Source: Hyalangium gracile (GTDB lineage Bacteria > Myxococcota > Myxococcia > Myxococcales > Myxococcaceae). From it: a DNA stretch of 64,000 bases. The notes beneath the pieces are model-generated. The model saw only the letters and a list, made by a program, of their open reading frames with translations, did not search any database and had not been told where the DNA came from. Made by a program: the position numbers and the translations under genes. Positions within the stretch are counted from its first letter, which is position 1, and the number at the start of each line of letters is the position of its first letter. The DNA is taken from NCBI RefSeq assembly GCF_020103725.1, contig NZ_JAHXBG010000017.1, forward strand, positions 1 through 64,000, given 5' to 3'. This document shows positions 5,656 through 13,872 of this stretch, piece after piece.

Positions 5656-7281
5656 TCAGGCGCTCTGGACGCCTGGGGCCATGGAGACCTTGAACCTCAG
5701 CTGGAGTGTCAGGTGCCCGTTGGCGGGGACCTCGACCTTCCACTTGCAGAAGCCATTGTCATCCAGCTGGGGCTCGCTCGTGGTCTTCGCCGTGTCCAGC
5801 TCCACCTTCACGTGTTCGATCTCGGATACCGGCAGGCGCTCGGTGACGACCACCGTCCGCGCCTCGCCCGAGAGGTTGGAGAGGTAGATGGAGATGTGGT
5901 GGGTGGTCTCGTTCCACTTGGTGACGTGGTGCTGCTTGGTGCTCTTCTTCTCCTCGCGCCGCACGCGCAGCGAGTCATCCGGGCCGAAGCTCAGCTCGAA
6001 CCTCTCCTGCGGCGCCACGAAGAGCGTCTGCGTCCAGCCCACGAAGCCGTTGTCCTGCAGCAGCTCCACGGGCCCCGCCAGCAGCGGGCTGGAGGAGGTG
6101 TTGCGCGTCACCGCGCGCAGGAACACCTTGGGCTCCAGCTCGGGGAACGTCACCAGCTCCGCCCGCGCGTCGTCCTCGAAGGTGAAGAGCGGGATGACGT
6201 TGGGCCGCCCATCCGAGGGGATGGTGCTCCTGCCCGGCGCCCGCAGGTTGCGCGTCTCTCCGCCGTCGTCCACGCCCGGCAGATCCACGCTGGTGGGCGT
6301 GGGGCGGCCGCCTTCGGACGCGGGCGAGCTGCCCAGGCCGGCCTTCTGCACCTGCACCTGGCGGGCCTGCACCACCACCGCCTCGTTCTTCTTCTTCACG
6401 GTGAGCAGGTCCTGCCGCAGCAGGGGAGGCTCGGTGCCCAGCGAGGAGCGCGCCGTGGAGAAGCGCAGCTCCACGTCCTTCCAGTCCTCGCCGGTGTCCT
6501 GCCACACGGCCGCCGAGGAGACGAGCTGCACCCGGCTCCGGCCCACCAGGCGCGCGGTGTGCAGCGGACGCCAGAGCGCGTTCGGCACCACGTAGTCGAT
6601 GCGCAGCTCCACCTCGCCGGCGGCGTCGGCCAGCACGTCCGCCTCCAGCCACGACACCACCTGGTGGTCCACGCGGTCCATGGCCTGGCGCTGCCGGGCC
6701 ACGGCGGCGATCTCCTCGTCCAGCCGCTCCGTGGTGAAGGTGGCCTGCAGCGTGAACTCGCGCAGCTGGCGGGCCTTGCGGAACAGCGTGTCGAACGAGT
6801 CCTGCCACTGCGCCGCCATCCCCATGCCCCAGCCGGCGTCCACGGGGAGCTCGGAGGCGCCCAGCAGCAGCAGCTCCCGGATGCGCTCGAAGCGGGCGCG
6901 GGCGTTGCCCTGGTCTTCCAGCACCTGCTGCCGCTCGCGCTGGAGCGCCTCGAGCTTCTCCTCGAGCACGCGGGCGGCCTCGGGCTTGTCCGCGGTGCGG
7001 ATGCGCAGGCCGCGGCGGATGCGGATGTCCGCCACGCGGGAGCCGCCGGAGAGGACCTCCGCGCGCAGCGAGACGTCCTGCAGCACCGGCGCCACGCCGT
7101 GGACGACGATGCGGTTCTGCCCGGCGCTCACCCGGACGGTGCCGCGGCGGCTGACCTGGGCCCGGTCCTCCAGCAGCGTGACGGTGTGGACGGGAGCCTC
7201 CAGCGTCGTGGCGCCGGAGGGGAGGGGGGGCTCGTAGCGCTCGACGCCCGCGGGAGAGGTGGGTTGGATGGCCGTGCTCAT
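5656..7281 (-). CDS. DUF4139 domain-containing protein (MuiA-like), copy 1
   Basis: 541 residues. The start at 7281 has a GGAGG ribosome-binding site and lies 1 nt after the stop of the upstream DUF4139 gene, so translation is coupled. The N-terminus (HTVTLLEDRAQVSRRGTVRV) is the DUF4140-type beta domain; residues about 85-130 and 165-190 are predicted coiled coil; the rest is DUF4139 (LRIDYVVPNALWRPLHTARL, WQDTGEDWKDVELRFST, ending LQLRFKVSM). Relatives are annotated as mucoidy inhibitor MuiA family; biochemical function is unknown and no catalytic residues stand out. There is no obvious signal peptide. It is a diverged paralog of the neighbouring gene, with the same domain order. Confidence 0.85.
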   Translation of the reverse strand: MSTAIQPTSPAGVERYEPPLPSGATTLEAPVHTVTLLEDRAQVSRRGTVRVSAGQNRIVVHGVAPVLQDVSLRAEVLSGGSRVADIRIRRGLRIRTADKPEAARVLEEKLEALQRERQQVLEDQGNARARFERIRELLLLGASELPVDAGWGMGMAAQWQDSFDTLFRKARQLREFTLQATFTTERLDEEIAAVARQRQAMDRVDHQVVSWLEADVLADAAGEVELRIDYVVPNALWRPLHTARLVGRSRVQLVSSAAVWQDTGEDWKDVELRFSTARSSLGTEPPLLRQDLLTVKKKNEAVVVQARQVQVQKAGLGSSPASEGGRPTPTSVDLPGVDDGGETRNLRAPGRSTIPSDGRPNVIPLFTFEDDARAELVTFPELEPKVFLRAVTRNTSSSPLLAGPVELLQDNGFVGWTQTLFVAPQERFELSFGPDDSLRVRREEKKSTKQHHVTKWNETTHHISIYLSNLSGEARTVVVTERLPVSEIEHVKVELDTAKTTSEPQLDDNGFCKWKVEVPANGHLTLQLRFKVSMAPGVQSA

Positions 7282-7282
7282 G

Positions 7283-9534
7283 TCACGCCTCCCGGCGGTT
7301 GCCGCCGTTGAGCTCGTTGTTGGCATACAGCTTCACCACGTACTGGGCCGCCAGCTTGCTGCTGGCATTCGCGGGCACGGTGAGCCGCCAGCGGCGCCCG
7401 CCCTCGATGGGGGTGTTGCGCTCCTCCTGCGTGTAGGCCTCCCACGCCGGAGTGATGGTGCCCTCCTCGACGACCACCTCCGCGTCCTGCGCGGGCTGGG
7501 GAATGCGCTCGCGCACCTCGCAGGTGATCTCCCGGTCCAGGTTGTTGACGAGCTCGATGGTGATGTCGTGCCACAGCTCGGTGGTCGCGACGATCTTCGT
7601 CCCGCTGCGGGCCTCGTGGTACTTCGTGTTCCGAGCGCAGCGGATGGCCTGCTCCACGCCCAGGCCCAGCTTGAAGTCCCCGCGCGGCGCCACCGAGGGC
7701 AGGGTGGTGGAGAGCACGTACTCGCCGCCCACGTACACCTCCGCCGGGCCGGCCAGCATGGGCGCCGGCAGCGGGTTCTTCACCTGCGCCTGACGGTAGA
7801 CGTTGGTGTCCTCGCGAGGGACGACCACGTAGAGGACGCTGGCCTCGCCGGTGCGCGTGCCCAGCGCCACGGAGTGGAACGTGCCATCCGAGGGGACATC
7901 CACGGTGGCATCCGCCGCGTAGCTGAAGTCGAAGAAGCCGTCGATGCTCGTGGCGTCCGTCGCGCCCGAGGGCAGCGGTGCGTGGGCGGCCGAGCGCGCC
8001 CGCCTCTCCGCCTCGGCCACCACGGCCATGACGTCGAACGTCACCGTGACCGAGAAGCGCGCCAGCGTCTCCAGATAGAAGCGCCGCGAGTCCACGGGCT
8101 GGAGCCGGTTGCGGTTGCTGGCATCGGCGGGCGAGGAGAGCCGTAGGTGGGTGAACACCACCGCCTCCAGGCCCGCCTGGGTGGGGGCCGCGCCACCCGG
8201 CCCGCGCGTCCGGCCCGCCCCCGCTCTCCCTCCAACGGAGACCATCTTCTCGACGGAAGCGGAGCGCGCCGGAGCCGCGGGCCGCGGCATGGGAGGCGGA
8301 GGCGCGGCTGGGGCGGGCATGACAACCGATGGGGAGACGAGGCTGGAGCTCTCCTCATAGGCCTCCTCCTTCATCATCTCGACAGGCTCCTCCGCGGCCG
8401 CCATGTCCGCGAGCGCCTCGTCGTCCATGCTCTCCGCCTCCACGTCCCTCATCGGCCGTGCGCCCTTCTTCTTCGACTTGTGCGCGTCTCGCGGGGCCGA
8501 CAGCGCCTCGATGACGGAGCCGTCCTCCAGGTCCGCGGGCGCGGGCAGCGCGGGGAGCGCGTACGGCGAGGGCGTGGGCAGCCTGTACAGCAGGATCGAT
8601 CGATCCCGGTCGTAGTCGGAGAAGAGCTGCGCGGCGCCCTGAGGCGCGGGACGGAACCCCGCGCGCTCGGGCGGCGGAGGCTGCGCGCGGCCGATGCGGA
8701 TGGAGGACAGCTCCGGCAGCTCCGTCCACGTCATCGGGGCGGCGGTGGAGAGCACCAGCTTCACCCCCCGCCAGTCCTCACCGGAGGCCTGGCACACGAG
8801 GGCGCGCATCACCAGCTCCACCTGGCGGCAGTCCCGGGACAGGCGGCACTGGTAGCTGGGAGCCCAGCGGGCGCCGGGGATGAAGTACTCCACGGAGAGC
8901 TCCGCGCGCGCCAGCGCGGCACCGCCGTGGCGCAGCTGCACGTGCACGGACTTGTAGAGCTCCGCCGCCGTCACCTCGCGGGCGGTGGAGGCCTGGGCGA
9001 TCTTCTGCTCCAGGACGGCCACCTCCTCGTGGAGCTTGCGGAGCTGCTCGCGCAGCTTGCGCGCCTCCGCGAGCCGGGACTGCACTCCCTCGTAGGCGAA
9101 CTGCTCCAGCGCCATGCGAGGCCCGAGCGGAGAGGGTGGGGGGGGCTTGCCCTCCTCGGGCTCCGGGCGCGGCGGGATGGGGATGTTGCCGAGGATGGAC
9201 ATCTCCCACTCGAGCTCGTGCAGCTGGCTCTCCACGGTCCGCACCTGCTGGCGCAGGGCGCGCAGCGCCGCCTGATCCACCGTCTCCAGCGGCGTCTCGC
9301 GAGGAGGGATCCACAGGCCCACGCGCACGTGGGTGGCGGAAAGATCCACCCGAGGGTTGTCCGCGGAGAGCACGCGCACGCGCACGGTGGGATCGAAGAG
9401 CGAGAGCGGCAGCCGTGGAATCTCCAGCTCCGTGGGGGCTTGCCGTCGGGGCAGTCCAGCACGAGCCGCCGCGTGACGCGGGCGCCCTGCTGGTAGAGGG
9501 TCACGGTGTCGATGCGGGATTCCACGACAGGCAT
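7283..9534 (-). pseudogene. DUF4139 domain-containing protein (MuiA-like), copy 2, one frameshift
   Basis: The start (MPVVESRIDTVTLYQQGARV, ATG at 9534, GGAG ribosome-binding site) is the typical DUF4140 N-terminus, but after about 33 codons the frame fails. The true continuation (TELEIPRLPLSLFDPTVRVR) is one base out of register. The break is in a run of five C on the coding strand (plus strand about 9431-9436); a sixth C would restore a 750-residue protein. Then follow a coiled coil (about 100-185), the DUF4139 body with a Pro-rich insert (PAPAAPPPPMPRPAAPARSA), and an end with WRLTVPANASSKLAAQYVVK. An open frame to 10069 is spurious before 9430. A homopolymer error in the assembly is as likely as real loss. 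Confidence 0.8.
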
Positions 9535-9694
9535 GTGCGCTCCCGGGAAGCAGTGCGCGGAACGCTAGATCGGTGTCCTGCGCCGAGGTGAAGGAAATCC
9601 GCCTCGAAATCCACCGGGAATATCGGCCCCTCGCGGCGTAACGGTGGTGGGGCGGCGATGTTCGAGGCCCCCGGGAGGATGAAGGGGTGCGCCC
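9535..9694. promoter_or_regulatory. Divergent promoter region between the DUF4139 operon and the ECF sigma operon
   Basis: About 160 bases separate the two divergent gene sets, so the promoters of both must lie here. GGAAC- and GGAAT-type elements resembling ECF -35 boxes are present (near 9556 and 9626), but I could not pair one with a convincing -10 element at normal spacing. Co-control of both sides by the ECF factor is inferred from position only. Confidence 0.3.
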
Positions 9695-10354
9695 GTGGAT
9701 TTGCTTGGGCTGCAGGCTCGCCGCGTGCAAACTAGCCCTCGCGTGGAGTTCCCATTCCGCTTCAGCCGCTCCCGGGCTCGGCCGCGGGCCGGGGAGCCGG
9801 CTTCTCCCGGAGCCCCTCTGCCTCCTCCCGCCAGTCCGGCGGCGGAGTTCCAGCAGGTCGTGGCTCTCTGCGAGGCGAGGCTGGAGGAGAAGGCACGCTT
9901 CCTGTGCCGGGGACGCAACCCGTCGGACGCGACGGATCTGCTGCAGGACACCTACGAGCGGGCGTTCCGCGCCTTCCACACGTATGACAGGAACGCGCCC
10001 CCGCTGCCGTGGCTGGCCTCCATCCTCACCCGGCGGTTCCTCGACATGTGCCGTCAGGACAAGCGGCACCCCCAGCAGCAGCTCACCGAGTCGCTGGACG
10101 TGCCGAGCGAGGAGGCAGGCCCCGCGGAGGTCTGGGCCGGGTATACGCTGGAGGATGTCTGGCGTGCGGTGGACCTGCTGCCCGAGGAGTTCCGCGACGT
10201 GGTGCGGCTGAAGGACATGGAAGGGCTGGCGTACGCGGAGATTTCCCAGCGGCTGGGCATCCCCGCGATGACGGTGGGGACGCGGCTGTTCCGGGCGCGC
10301 AAGAAGCTCAAGGAGCTGCTGCTGAAGAAGGCGGAGACAGGGGGGGCGTCATGA
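9695..10354 (+). CDS. ECF-type RNA polymerase sigma factor
   Basis: Up to 219 residues from a GTG at 9695; the first 45-50 residues are low-complexity and the true start may be later (other GTG codons follow). Region 2 is visible in NPSDATDLLQDTYERAFRAF and WLASILTRRFLDMCR, and region 4 in DLLPEEFRDVVRLKDMEGLA with helix-turn-helix AEISQRLGIPAMTVGTRLFRA. It should direct RNA polymerase to a small regulon. Its last codon overlaps the start of the next gene by ATGA, and that gene begins with a zinc-finger anti-sigma module, so this is a sigma/anti-sigma pair. The facing DUF4139 operon is a possible target. Confidence 0.88.
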   Translation: MDLLGLQARRVQTSPRVEFPFRFSRSRARPRAGEPASPGAPLPPPASPAAEFQQVVALCEARLEEKARFLCRGRNPSDATDLLQDTYERAFRAFHTYDRNAPPLPWLASILTRRFLDMCRQDKRHPQQQLTESLDVPSEEAGPAEVWAGYTLEDVWRAVDLLPEEFRDVVRLKDMEGLAYAEISQRLGIPAMTVGTRLFRARKKLKELLLKKAETGGAS

Positions 10355-13287
10355 CGGCTTCCTGCGAGCAGCTGGCCGCGTTCGTGGACGGCGAGCTCTC
10401 CGAGGCGGAGGCCGCGGCCTTCCAGGAGCACCTCGCCGGCTGCGCGGACTGCCAGGCCGGGCTCGAGGATCAGGTGCAGGCCAGCCTCGCGGTGGGCGAG
10501 CTGGCGAAGGGCAGGAAGTCGGAGCGCCGGGGGCCGTTCCAGCCCGTCTGGGCCCGTCCCCGCGTGCGGGTGCTGGCGTTCTCGGCGGGCCTGGCGGCGC
10601 TGATCGGCCTCCTCGTGGTGAGCTCGTATCGCTCCTCCCGCAAGGGGCTGGAGGATCCGCTCCACCTGGCGAGCGCGGACACCCGGCCGCTGGAGGGACG
10701 GCTCGGCTATCCGGGCGCGGATCGGTACCGGAAGCTCGGGACGATGCGCGGCGGGCCGGACCGAGGGACGGGACCGGACCTGCGCGTGCTGGCGCAGCTG
10801 GAGGAGCAAGGGGACTTTCGCGGCGTGGCGACGGCGTACCTGCTCGCCGGCGATGCCGAGCGCGCGGAGGCCTATCTGGACCACGTGCCGCGCTCACCGG
10901 ACGTCGACAGCGATCGGGCGCTGGCGGCGCTCGGGCGAGGAGACCTGGATCGAGCGCTGGGGCTGCTGGATGGGGCGCTGGCGGCGGAGCCCGAGGCGCT
11001 GCGCGCGCACTGGAACCGGGGCGTGGTGCTGCGGGCGATGTCCCTGCAGCTGGCCGCGGCGGCGGAGTTCCAGCACGTCGCGGAGAAGGGAGAGCCCGGC
11101 TGGAGCGACGAGGCGCGACAGCTCGCGGAAGGGCTTCGCTCGGGTGCCGAGAACCGGCGCAAGTCCTGGACCGCCATGAAGGACGCGGGCATGGCGCTCG
11201 CGCTGGAGGGCAAGGCGCCACCTGCCGCGATGCTCTCCCGGAACCCGGGGCTGATGCGGCTGTACCTGTACCATGCGGTCCGGGCCGCGATGTCCCAGGA
11301 GCAGGTGCTCGCGCTGCTGCCGGTGGCGGAGGCGCTCGATCAGGTGTCTCGGACACGCACGGCCGTCGAGTACGTCCAGCGCGTCTCGCGAGCGGACGTC
11401 GCGCGGCGAGGCCCGCTGGCGGAGACGTACCGCGCGCACCTCTCGGGGCAGCAGCCGCTGTCGGGCGCGGAGGCGGAGGCGTACCTGGATCGCCTCCGGC
11501 GCTCGGGAGAGAAGGACCTGCTCCTGGGAGCCATCGTGCTGCTGAGGGCCGAGCGCCAGCACCTGGCCGAGCTGGAGCCCCTCGTCGAGCAGTCCGGGGA
11601 TGCGACGTGGTACCGGGCCCCGCTGGTGAAGGCCCAGGTGCAGGAGGACCTGTCCCGGGGCGACGCCGTCCGGGCCGAGCGGCGCCTCCTGGAGGCCATC
11701 GACGAGTGCCGCCGCGCGAACCTGGAGCACCGCTGCGTCATGCTCCAGGAGGAGCTGAGCGAGCTGTACAACAAGCTCGACCGCCGCCGCGAGGCCGTGG
11801 GGCCGGCGCGCGAGGCGCTGGAGGTGGCTCGCCGGACCGACGACTGGTTCCATGAGGATCTGCTCGTGTACGACCTCATGACCAGCGCGCGGCTGAGCCA
11901 TGAGGCGGCGCTGGCCAGGGCCTATCTCGACGAGTACCTGCAGCGCGAGCCAGGGAGCTGCGAGCGCCGGGCCGAGTACCACTACGGGCGTGCGCTCCTC
12001 GCCGTGGAGGCGCTGGATGCCGCGACCGCCCGGCGGGAGGTCCAGGCCGCACGCGCCTGTGACGCTCCGCCGACGCTGTTCGAAGTGTCTGTCTACGGCG
12101 ATCTCCTCCGGCTCGGTGGGAGCCCCGAGGAGGTGGCCCGGGCCGAGGAGCGCATCCGGACGCTCCGGGCGGACGCCTCACTCAAGCCGGGCCAGCGGCT
12201 GTTCCTGGAGCACGTGGCGGGCCGCATCCTCATCGAGCGGGATCGCCCCGCGGGCCAGCGGGCGCTGCGAGACGTCATCGCCGGAGCGGAGAAGCTGCGC
12301 CAGACCGACATCGAGGCGCGCAAGGCCTGGACCTACAGCCACCAGGTGCTGGTGCTGGACGCCGGGAGGGCAGGGGAGTTCGACGCGGCCATCGCGCTCC
12401 TCTCCGCCGAGCTCGAGCGGGCCGCGCCGGCGAGCTGCCTCCTCGCCCTGGCCGGACAGGATGAGCGGGTCCTCTTCATGGCGAGGGGGCCGAAAGGCGA
12501 GCTTCGGGGCGAGTACCTGGGGCAGCGCACGCGCCCTCTGCGCGAGGAGGTCCCCGCCGTGCCAGGGCCGCTCCTCGAGGTGCTCGAGAGCTGTGACTCG
12601 GTGCGGGTGCTCGCGGAGCCCATCCTCCAGGGACGGCCGGAGCTGCTGCCTCCGGAGAGGGCGTGGAGCTACCTGGTGCCCCGGGTGGGAGTCGCGAAGG
12701 CACCCGCCGTCACGGCCCCAGGCAAGCATGTCGTGGTCACCGACGTGGAGCCTCCAGCCTCCTTGAAGCTGCCCCACCTGCTGCCGTGGAGCCGTCCGCC
12801 GAGGCCGGGCGAGGTCCACCTGCGGGGCAAATCCGCCACACCCGCGACGGTGCTGGCGGAGATCGCCGATGCCACCGAGGTGGAGTTCCATGCCCACGGA
12901 CTGATCCGCTCGGGGTTCTCGGATGCCTCGTTCCTGGCGCTCTCGCCCGAGGAGGGGGGCCGCTTCGCGCTCACGGCGGGAGACCTCCAGGGACGCTCGC
13001 TGCGAGGAGCCCCGCTGGTGCTGCTGGCCGCGTGTCATGCCAACGGGGGCGCCTGGCGCTACTACGCCGTGTGGAGCCTGCCAGCGGCGTTCATCCAGGC
13101 CGGAGCCCGCGCGGTGGTGGCGCCGACCGCCCAGGTGCCGGATGTCGAGGTGGGGGACGTCTTCCAGGAGCTGCTCGAGCGCGTGGAGCGGGGAGCGAGC
13201 CCCGCGCAGGCCCTGAGAGACATCCGCGTGGCCGGGTTTCAGAAGGGAACGGGGCGCTGGGTGTCGGATCTCGTCGTCTTCGAGTAG
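10351..13287 (+). CDS. Anti-sigma zinc finger, transmembrane, TPR, CHAT-protease fusion
   Basis: 978 residues. Residues 1-40 form an anti-sigma zinc finger (Cys5, His27, Cys31, Cys34; EHLAGCADC). A single transmembrane helix lies at about 72-92. Residues about 130-690 are helical TPR-like repeats. Residues about 790-978 form a CHAT domain (caspase family): FHAHG has the likely catalytic His (847 or 849) and LLAACHANGG holds Cys895, followed by SLPAAFIQAGARAVVAPTAQ. It probably holds the ECF factor at the membrane, with TPRs and protease on the other side. Families with separate parts are well known; sensing and self-cleavage here are inference. The start at 10351 is fixed by the ATGA overlap. 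Membrane topology needs testing, since the N-terminus should be cytoplasmic. Confidence 0.88.
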   Translation: MTASCEQLAAFVDGELSEAEAAAFQEHLAGCADCQAGLEDQVQASLAVGELAKGRKSERRGPFQPVWARPRVRVLAFSAGLAALIGLLVVSSYRSSRKGLEDPLHLASADTRPLEGRLGYPGADRYRKLGTMRGGPDRGTGPDLRVLAQLEEQGDFRGVATAYLLAGDAERAEAYLDHVPRSPDVDSDRALAALGRGDLDRALGLLDGALAAEPEALRAHWNRGVVLRAMSLQLAAAAEFQHVAEKGEPGWSDEARQLAEGLRSGAENRRKSWTAMKDAGMALALEGKAPPAAMLSRNPGLMRLYLYHAVRAAMSQEQVLALLPVAEALDQVSRTRTAVEYVQRVSRADVARRGPLAETYRAHLSGQQPLSGAEAEAYLDRLRRSGEKDLLLGAIVLLRAERQHLAELEPLVEQSGDATWYRAPLVKAQVQEDLSRGDAVRAERRLLEAIDECRRANLEHRCVMLQEELSELYNKLDRRREAVGPAREALEVARRTDDWFHEDLLVYDLMTSARLSHEAALARAYLDEYLQREPGSCERRAEYHYGRALLAVEALDAATARREVQAARACDAPPTLFEVSVYGDLLRLGGSPEEVARAEERIRTLRADASLKPGQRLFLEHVAGRILIERDRPAGQRALRDVIAGAEKLRQTDIEARKAWTYSHQVLVLDAGRAGEFDAAIALLSAELERAAPASCLLALAGQDERVLFMARGPKGELRGEYLGQRTRPLREEVPAVPGPLLEVLESCDSVRVLAEPILQGRPELLPPERAWSYLVPRVGVAKAPAVTAPGKHVVVTDVEPPASLKLPHLLPWSRPPRPGEVHLRGKSATPATVLAEIADATEVEFHAHGLIRSGFSDASFLALSPEEGGRFALTAGDLQGRSLRGAPLVLLAACHANGGAWRYYAVWSLPAAFIQAGARAVVAPTAQVPDVEVGDVFQELLERVERGASPAQALRDIRVAGFQKGTGRWVSDLVVFE

Positions 13288-13359
13288 CCGTCCCACGGGG
13301 AAATCCCCTTGGACCCGGGAATAGGGCCGGACGGCTGCGTAGAAGGAGCGGAGGGCATC

Positions 13360-13872
13360 ATGAACAGCACGTGGAGAGCAGCAATGAGGCGTGGAGTCTT
13401 CGTGGCACTCGTCGTGTGTGGGGCACAGGCCGCGCTGGCCGACGAGCCCAGGCGGGCCGCCACCCCCAGCGCGAGCTCGGGGAAGGCGGACGGCGCCCAG
13501 GCCAGCGCGCCGACCTACTTCGACCTGGCGGTGTCCAACGGACCGGGGCGGGGCGTGACCGTCTACCGCTTCCATCGGGCGGAGCAGAAGCTCACCTTGC
13601 TGGAGCGCCTCGAGGGGGATGCGGCCGGGGCTCGGACGAAGACCTTCAACCCGCTCCAGACGCTGGGGAACGCCATCATCGTCCTCTCACCGGAGGGGCG
13701 GAAGAAGCCGCCTCCGCCCCCGCCTCCGGGAGATGAGCTGCGCAACCGGTGGAAGGTGCCCGACGCGGAGGTCGCGACGGCGATGCAGCAGCTCAAGGCC
13801 CAGGTGTCCAACCCGGGGCCCGTGTCCATCGGGCAGCTTCAGTCCGCGGCGGCGGCTCCCCAGGCGAAGTAG
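13360..13872 (+). CDS. Secreted protein of unknown function downstream of the CHAT gene
   Basis: 170 residues with a Sec signal (RRGVFVALVVCGAQAALA, cleavage near residue 27). The mature protein has a low-complexity start, a compact part (TYFDLAVSNGPGRGVTVYRF, LTLLERLEGD), a run of seven prolines in KKPPPPPPPGDE and an Ala-rich end. I do not recognise a family. The ATG at 13360 has a GGAG-type ribosome-binding site; an ATG at 13384 is an alternative. It follows the CHAT gene by 72 nt on the same strand, so it may be the third gene of that operon. Confidence 0.65.
   Translation: MNSTWRAAMRRGVFVALVVCGAQAALADEPRRAATPSASSGKADGAQASAPTYFDLAVSNGPGRGVTVYRFHRAEQKLTLLERLEGDAAGARTKTFNPLQTLGNAIIVLSPEGRKKPPPPPPPGDELRNRWKVPDAEVATAMQQLKAQVSNPGPVSIGQLQSAAAAPQAK

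Follow-up and report, generated by a model that had tools for sequence, protein, structure and literature searches.

The closest described relative of the system analysed here is the anti-sigma factor DdvA of Myxococcus xanthus (8rot, 8rw5 and 8rlz), which acts with DdvS. We examined a locus in the first 64,000 nucleotides of Hyalangium gracile contig NZ_JAHXBG010000017.1 (assembly GCF_020103725.1; hereafter the window), in which the gene for an extracytoplasmic function (ECF) sigma factor is followed by that for an anti-sigma factor combining a zinc domain, one hydrophobic helix, a TPR-like solenoid and a CHAT domain in a single chain. DdvA shares the domain order, the fold, the zinc ligands and the His/Cys dyad, and is likewise described as having an ECF sigma partner. 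The signal that inactivates DdvA was given as not known as of 2015 (PMC4374960).

Three further systems invite comparison. In the type III-E CRISPR Craspase (Csx29/Csx30/CASP-sigma) a TPR-CHAT protease, Csx29, is likewise linked with an ECF-like sigma factor and with the inhibitor of that factor, Csx30, which Csx29 is described as cutting (PMC10028731). As presented there, Csx29 is a separate, RNA-activated chain that cuts a separate inhibitor, whereas the window protein is fused and membrane-anchored, a chain with no CRISPR part; the two are related by fold only. Separase is likewise a helical solenoid followed by a caspase-like domain; it is eukaryotic, cuts cohesin and is not known to have a sigma link. 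RseA, which acts on RpoE, is an anti-sigma factor of the same membrane type and is under regulated proteolysis, with DegS and RseP; its site-1 protease, DegS, is described as a separate protein. The predicted topology of the window protein would fit the RseA type, and the genome has M50 homologues.

The fused architecture described in the initial annotation has precedents. Its fold and domain order were already known from DdvA (8rot, 8rw5), and TPR-CHAT cleavage of an ECF sigma inhibitor from Craspase. The interest of the locus lies in family-level evidence and not in the fusion itself. Compared with the single case of DdvA, it adds a dyad that is invariant across the family, natural split forms, an exported protein as candidate partner and a promoter motif that is rare.

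The window protein is a paralogous member of the DdvA family

The sigma stop codon overlaps the anti-sigma start codon as ATGA. The two genes and the parts of the longer one are as follows, all on the forward strand.

9695..10354, +: ECF sigma factor gene, 219 aa, GTG start inferred (Pfam; conservation in the alignment reaches ~9695)
10351..13287, +: DdvA-type transmembrane anti-sigma factor with a probable TPR-CHAT ectodomain, 978 aa (Pfam, homology and model)
10363..10452, +: zinc anti-sigma domain, ligands Cys5/His27/Cys31/Cys34 (zf-HC2 and ligand conservation)
10564..10620, +: predicted transmembrane helix, residues 72-90 (hydropathy)
10780..12414, +: TPR-like alpha-solenoid spanning residues 144-688, which contains the coupled cysteines 453/462 and 537/570 (model and coupling)
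12430..13284, +: CHAT domain of caspase/separase-like type, spanning residues 694-978 and containing the cysteine pair 696/748 (Pfam and fold matches)
12895..12897, +: codon of His849 of the dyad (His in 72/72 rows)
13033..13035, +: codon of Cys895 of the dyad (Cys in 72/72 rows)

Translation of 10351-13287 gives 978 residues with no internal stop. Sigma70_r2, r4 and r4_2 all exceed their Pfam cut-offs in the open reading frame 9695-10354, as do zf-HC2 at residues 6-35 (E 6.4e-10) and CHAT at 824-960 (E 2.1e-16) in the anti-sigma protein, whose sole hydrophobic segment is residues 72-90 (mean Kyte-Doolittle value 2.33). One chain with these three elements, linked through ATGA to the gene of an ECF sigma factor, is what had been proposed, and Cys5, His27, Cys31, Cys34, His849 and Cys895 all stand where they had been placed. 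The TPR array also proposed is present as a modelled solenoid and fails as a sequence match: TPR_16 at 188-241 lies under its Pfam cut-off (24 vs 32.7 bits), and the assignment therefore rests on the AlphaFold2 model. Built from 37 sequences, with a mean predicted local distance difference test score (pLDDT) of 87.2 and a predicted template modelling score of 0.81, this model has a helical solenoid at 144-688, mostly at pLDDT >90, and then a mixed alpha/beta domain; fold matches to separase and gingipain cover residues 694-978.

In a phmmer search, residues 3-978 aligned with residues 4-991 of the 991-residue DdvA chain 8rot_B (named CHAT domain-containing protein) at E 2e-123, and the zinc part matched 8rlz (named antisigma factor DdvA). 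Foldseek matched the model to 8rw5 and 8rot (E 3.1e-45 and 2.8e-44), both titled transmembrane anti-sigma factor DdvA, and the VIA comparison with 8rot aligned 866 residues over the span 98-978 with Z 40.6 and 34% identity. Among the matches listed, the next fold families after DdvA were Csx29 (Z 15.8-23.0) and separase (Z 16.5-20.2). These comparisons show homology to DdvA along the entire chain, and the window protein is best explained as a DdvA-type anti-sigma factor.

A search of 195 Myxococcota genomes, in which four candidates were scored per genome so that copy numbers are minimum values, found matches at E <=1e-10 in 67 genomes spread across 11 of 90 genera. The taxonomic family of the window accounts for 66 of these genomes. 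(L-numbers below denote loci or rows and G-numbers genomes, G000 being the genome of the window; g6 is another genus.) G000 itself has three full-length copies, in the window and at L039 and L041, together with a stand-alone TPR-CHAT copy (L040) and an anti-sigma-TPR copy that lacks CHAT (L042). Full-length relatives with the identical domain order recur in other genomes, and they rule out a sequencing or gene-calling artefact as the source of the fusion. In a tree of the TPR-CHAT part (FastTree, midpoint-rooted, support values not printed) the window protein belongs to a clade apart from that of DdvA, which clusters with L041. The separate clade rules out orthology with DdvA: the member of the DdvA clade in this genome is L041, and the window protein is a paralogous member of the family.

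Conservation of the catalytic dyad and the zinc ligands

Alignment A1 comprises the window protein and 36 relatives, 28 of which are only 35-42% identical to it, and His849, Gly850 and Cys895 are invariant in all 37 rows. In the wider set of aligned CHAT-bearing rows, position 849 is His and position 895 is Cys in 72 of 72. A His-Gly...Cys dyad within a caspase fold, here accompanied by fold matches to separase, Csx29 and gingipain, is the mark of a clan CD cysteine peptidase. It is thus well supported, from these alignments, that the CHAT domain keeps a His/Cys dyad of the working type, and the intact pair originally reported recurs in every CHAT-bearing row aligned. Invariance of the dyad at 35-42% identity argues for an active peptidase and falls short of proof.

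The zinc ligands are nearly as constant: His27, Cys31 and Cys34 are present in 55/55 rows, and position 5 is Cys in 47 and His in eight. The rows with His at this first ligand are L035, L038, L062, L065, L092 and L096 and the anti-sigma halves L042 and L078.

Coupled cysteines and membrane topology

Besides the zinc ligands and Cys895, the family has six widely conserved cysteine positions, which behave as three pairs across 79 rows. Positions 453 and 462 are both Cys in 75 rows and neither is in four, those four being one subclade (L045-L048); 537 and 570 are both Cys in 67 rows and neither is in six, with gaps in the other six, and the loss is confined to the DdvA clade plus L071, so that this pair is present in the window protein and absent from DdvA. 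The pair 696/748 is never lost (both Cys in 73 rows, gaps in six). By comparison, position 280 is Cys in 10 of the 79 rows. Joint losses amount to about three events and losses of a single partner to none. The simple reading is that the three pairs would form disulfides, and since they are lost only jointly or never, which is disulfide-like behaviour and points to an oxidising compartment, the CHAT domain is probably periplasmic.

By hydropathy, 75 of the 79 rows have a predicted membrane helix, and in 63 of these 75 the net charge is more positive before the helix than after it. The four rows without a helix at the threshold used (L061, L063, L095 and L098) all carry the label CHATONLY (see below), rows whose N-termini were placed by alignment, and not by start codon, in this hydropathy count. 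Together with the word 'transmembrane' in the titles of the DdvA structures, the coupled cysteines and the positive-inside charge bear out the earlier suggestion that CHAT most likely lies outside the cytoplasm. We infer that the zinc domain is probably cytoplasmic and the TPR-CHAT part probably periplasmic.

The protease and anti-sigma halves occur as separate chains

Not all relatives are fused. The label CHATONLY was given to 24 rows; ten are g6 rows whose zinc domain escaped the local alignment or was cut off at a contig end, and the remaining 14, judged by their N-termini (with the lists of neighbouring genes used for 10 of the 14), are stand-alone TPR-CHAT proteins without a zinc domain. 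These occupy at least three places in the tree. Conversely, the label NOCHAT covers seven rows, of which L033 is cut at a contig end and the other six (L042, L069, L073, L078, L081 and L084) are taken as real: in each, a sigma gene accompanies a zinc-helix-TPR chain that lacks CHAT and matches the query up to about residue 462-534. Six further anti-sigma halves (L150-L155) match the query to 263-539.

The two halves keep company. In 14 genomes surveyed, nine have both halves, five have neither and none has one alone (Fisher 0.0005, a value that treats related genomes as more independent than they are). Candidates scored were 65 of 72 in G082 and 65 of 86 in G044, which makes the 'neither' of G044 slightly less sure. 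Halves were initially separated by match range, and ten were then read individually: a zinc motif and a sigma hit were found in 6/6 anti-sigma halves (L150-L155), and the zinc motif in 0/4 CHAT halves. At least one pair lies within ~10 kb in seven of the nine genomes that have both; no such pair was seen in G000 or G082. The numbers of halves can be unequal, with two CHAT and one anti-sigma half in G082 and three and one in G055. Because the halves are always present together or both absent in these genomes, the CHAT half is tied to the sigma pathway, and this pattern suggests that the two halves serve a common pathway and can function as individual chains. In practical terms, the split forms allow the protease half to be expressed apart from the anti-sigma half. 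A literature search, which excluded the NAR 2018 and Sci Adv 2024 papers on DdvA, turned up no paper that we recognised as dealing with the split forms or with the small exported protein described below.

In the genome of the window the anti-sigma half (L042:8275-9807, contig G000:C19) and the CHAT half (L040:7434-10175, contig G000:C1) are on different contigs. Genes of the cupin-8/JmjC oxygenase type, one to three in a row, lie beside stand-alone TPR-CHAT or split loci (L069:9337-12663, L081:10510-11514, L098:10312-13470 and L063:8334-11441); L069:10324-11370 matches Cupin_8 at E 4.9e-43 and the others were judged by eye.

A candidate promoter motif shared by the sigma operon and a small exported-protein gene

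Alignment of the regions upstream of sigma in orthologous loci revealed a motif, GGAATA-N13-GCGTA, that occurs twice in the window, both times without mismatch; at <=1 mismatch there are 2 sites against 0.08 expected in shuffles. The second copy leads into a third gene.

9617..9640, +: GGAATA-N13-GCGTA, candidate promoter for the sigma/anti-sigma operon (conserved ahead of sigma in orthologous loci; helped define the motif)
13318..13341, +: second motif copy, directly before the small exported-protein gene (not used for motif definition)
13360..13872, +: small exported protein of 170 aa with a beta-meander core in the model; signal peptide judged by eye (same position in orthologues)

In the form GGAATA-N13-RCGTA the motif has 24 sites in the window and 16 orthologous loci (L043-L058) and is present in 17 of these 17 loci; 17 sites precede the sigma operon, seven precede the small gene and none lies elsewhere. 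This form has no site in the 682,116 bases covered by 44 loci from other members of the family, and a scan of other clades for GGAA-N-CGT gave no convincing promoter common to sigma and the small gene. The exact motif is lacking before the small gene in L047, L048 and the eight g6 loci L051-L058, and before the sigma operon in L050. That the sigma factor drives transcription of its own operon, and also of the small exported-protein gene from a second candidate promoter of the same kind, is well supported. So rare a motif could report on the state of the switch.

Variants of the arrangement point the same motif at other exported proteins. In g6 it precedes a lipoprotein gene upstream of sigma (L018, L019, L051, L052, L053, L055, L056, L057 and L058), and in L054, where the lipoprotein gene is not called, the motif stands upstream of the called sigma gene, 334 bases from its start. 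Homologues of this lipoprotein follow far-off motif copies in G077 and G079, which belong to the genus of the window; the G077 protein is ~42-52% identical to the g6 lipoproteins beside sigma. Of nine genomes searched, three (G077, G079 and G080) have such a lipoprotein, and the genome of the window gave no match. That the lipoprotein also follows far-off motif copies supports the motif independently. At L044 the operon site lies ahead of two genes that come before sigma, one for an exported papain-like protease (Peptidase_C70, E 3.1e-13) and one for another exported protein; L050 has the same two genes with no exact motif site upstream.

Twenty exact sites were found in five genomes, four before sigma, five before the small gene and 11 elsewhere. 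Nine of these 11 precede proteins that appear exported by eye, and two (L114 and L117) have no convincing gene call. Single distal sites are candidate targets only. The motif thus precedes exported-protein genes, whereas DdvS reportedly drives a CRISPR-Cas and cyclic-oligonucleotide defence island (PMC12288465); for this comparison the genes after exact motif sites were viewed by eye.

The small protein has no Pfam match, and its model (pLDDT 67 overall, higher across parts of 51-160) gave nothing significant in Foldseek (best E 0.19). A gene on the same strand, starting within -60 to 160 bases downstream, is found after 34 of the 43 full-length rows and after 12 of the 19 that carry the TPR-CHAT-only label. 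Most of the products have a signal peptide or lipobox by eye; the exceptions are L068, L070, L094 and L078, with no clear signal, and L069, L095 and L098 (419-432 aa), L086 (97 aa) and L090 (388 aa), which differ in length. A small gene directly follows six of the 14 stand-alone TPR-CHAT rows (L040, L061, L076, L077, L078 and L093), and in all of these but L078 the product has a signal peptide or lipobox by eye and the fetched stretch contains no sigma hit. That a small exported-protein gene follows stand-alone TPR-CHAT genes of this one group (L040, L061, L076, L077 and L093), with no sigma hit in the stretch, suggests that the small protein acts together with TPR-CHAT and not with sigma. Most likely it is a ligand, substrate or feedback partner of TPR-CHAT.

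Three observations accompany these results. A protein of 419-432 aa replaces the small protein directly after the stand-alone TPR-CHAT genes of one clade (L095, L098:8655-9911 and L069:5099-6394), and its L098 copy has no Pfam match. A 320 aa protein, exported by eye, stands behind an exact motif in both G000 (L102:489-1448, reverse strand) and G082 (L103) and is a candidate distant target; the L102 copy has no Pfam match. The papain-like protease genes are at L044:7673-8956 and L050:12917-14206, both on the reverse strand, and encode Peptidase_C70/C39_2 plus BTRD1 repeats; in L044 the motif is 45 bases ahead of the gene.

How the sigma factor might be released

We propose, as a reading for which we see about even chances, that the window protein is a DdvA-type anti-sigma factor whose periplasmic CHAT domain provides a built-in site-1 step, followed by site-2 release of the sigma factor. 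The TPR solenoid would read a periplasmic signal and free the CHAT site; CHAT would then cut the juxtamembrane part of its own chain or that of a dimer partner, and an M50 site-2 protease and cytoplasmic proteases would finish the zinc domain and release sigma. The genome encodes M50 (site-2 type) proteases (best 235.5 bits), and Craspase, as far as it is described, is by analogy the mechanistic precedent for TPR-CHAT cleavage of a sigma inhibitor. Several findings weigh against this proposal. No conserved cut site was seen in the juxtamembrane stretch, and a catalytic dyad can be retained for structural reasons. The small protein of the window clade shows no detectable homology to its counterparts in the other clades (probability <=3.8% by hhalign); between the other clades, hhalign gave 93% for S3-S4 and for S4-S7, 75% for S2-S3 (38 C-terminal columns) and 53% for S6-S7. 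Exact motif sites number 3-5 per genome against 0-2 for a reversed control, distal sites being little above the control, and one-mismatch sites are not above it (32 vs 48 in G000; 53 vs 79 in G082), for which reason only exact sites were used here.

The alternatives differ in what CHAT cuts, if it cuts at all. It might be an active periplasmic protease acting on another substrate, such as the small exported protein or a foreign protein, with the anti-sigma factor responding through other proteases or a conformational change. TPR-CHAT does exist as a separate chain without a zinc domain, in six of the 14 rows directly before a small gene as described above, and the small gene of the window has its own motif copy; yet the stand-alone form co-occurs with anti-sigma-TPR in all nine genomes that have it, which ties TPR-CHAT to the sigma pathway, and we consider this explanation unlikely. 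It is decidedly less plausible that CHAT is a structural or dimerisation module, a pseudo-protease, and that a separate site-1 protease begins an ordinary site-1/site-2 release: the title of 8rw5 calls DdvA dimeric and M50 proteases are present, but a pseudo-enzyme family of this depth would be expected to lose a catalytic residue somewhere, and His849, Cys895 and Gly850 are retained in every row in which they were compared. That a single cut by CHAT frees sigma with no site-2 step would be suggested by the fusion in one chain and by cleavage of the sigma inhibitor in Craspase. In Craspase no membrane is known to separate the protease from the sigma factor. Here, with CHAT probably outside and the zinc domain inside, a CHAT cut would leave the zinc domain anchored in the membrane and could replace site 1 only; we regard this route as very improbable, and with it the original idea of a CHAT switch that acts instead of the site-1/site-2 cascade.

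Extended to the family, the built-in site-1 proposal would make these myxobacterial periplasmic, separase-like proteins the built-in site-1 proteases of ECF anti-sigma factors, fused and repeatedly split (anti-sigma-TPR and TPR-CHAT acting in trans), with a dedicated small exported protein that is both sigma target and ligand, substrate or brake, so that every copy would form a self-contained outside-in switch having a promoter code of its own. We put this wider view forward tentatively, as somewhat doubtful. Whether a periplasmic CHAT domain serves as a site-1 protease becomes a directly testable question at this locus of a harmless, soil-dwelling bacterium and, if it does, the TPR-CHAT/sigma link known from Craspase would extend to the cell envelope.

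Genes upstream of the sigma operon

Upstream of the sigma gene lies a divergent pair of DUF4139 genes (5656-9534, reverse strand). The nearby motif is directed at sigma and not at this pair, which was rejected as part of the unit; among the orthologous loci compared, only the window, L043 and L044 have the pair next to sigma. More distant relatives (25-27%) lie beside the split-form loci L073 and L084 of another clade, and the adjacency at the window and at these two loci may be a coincidence.

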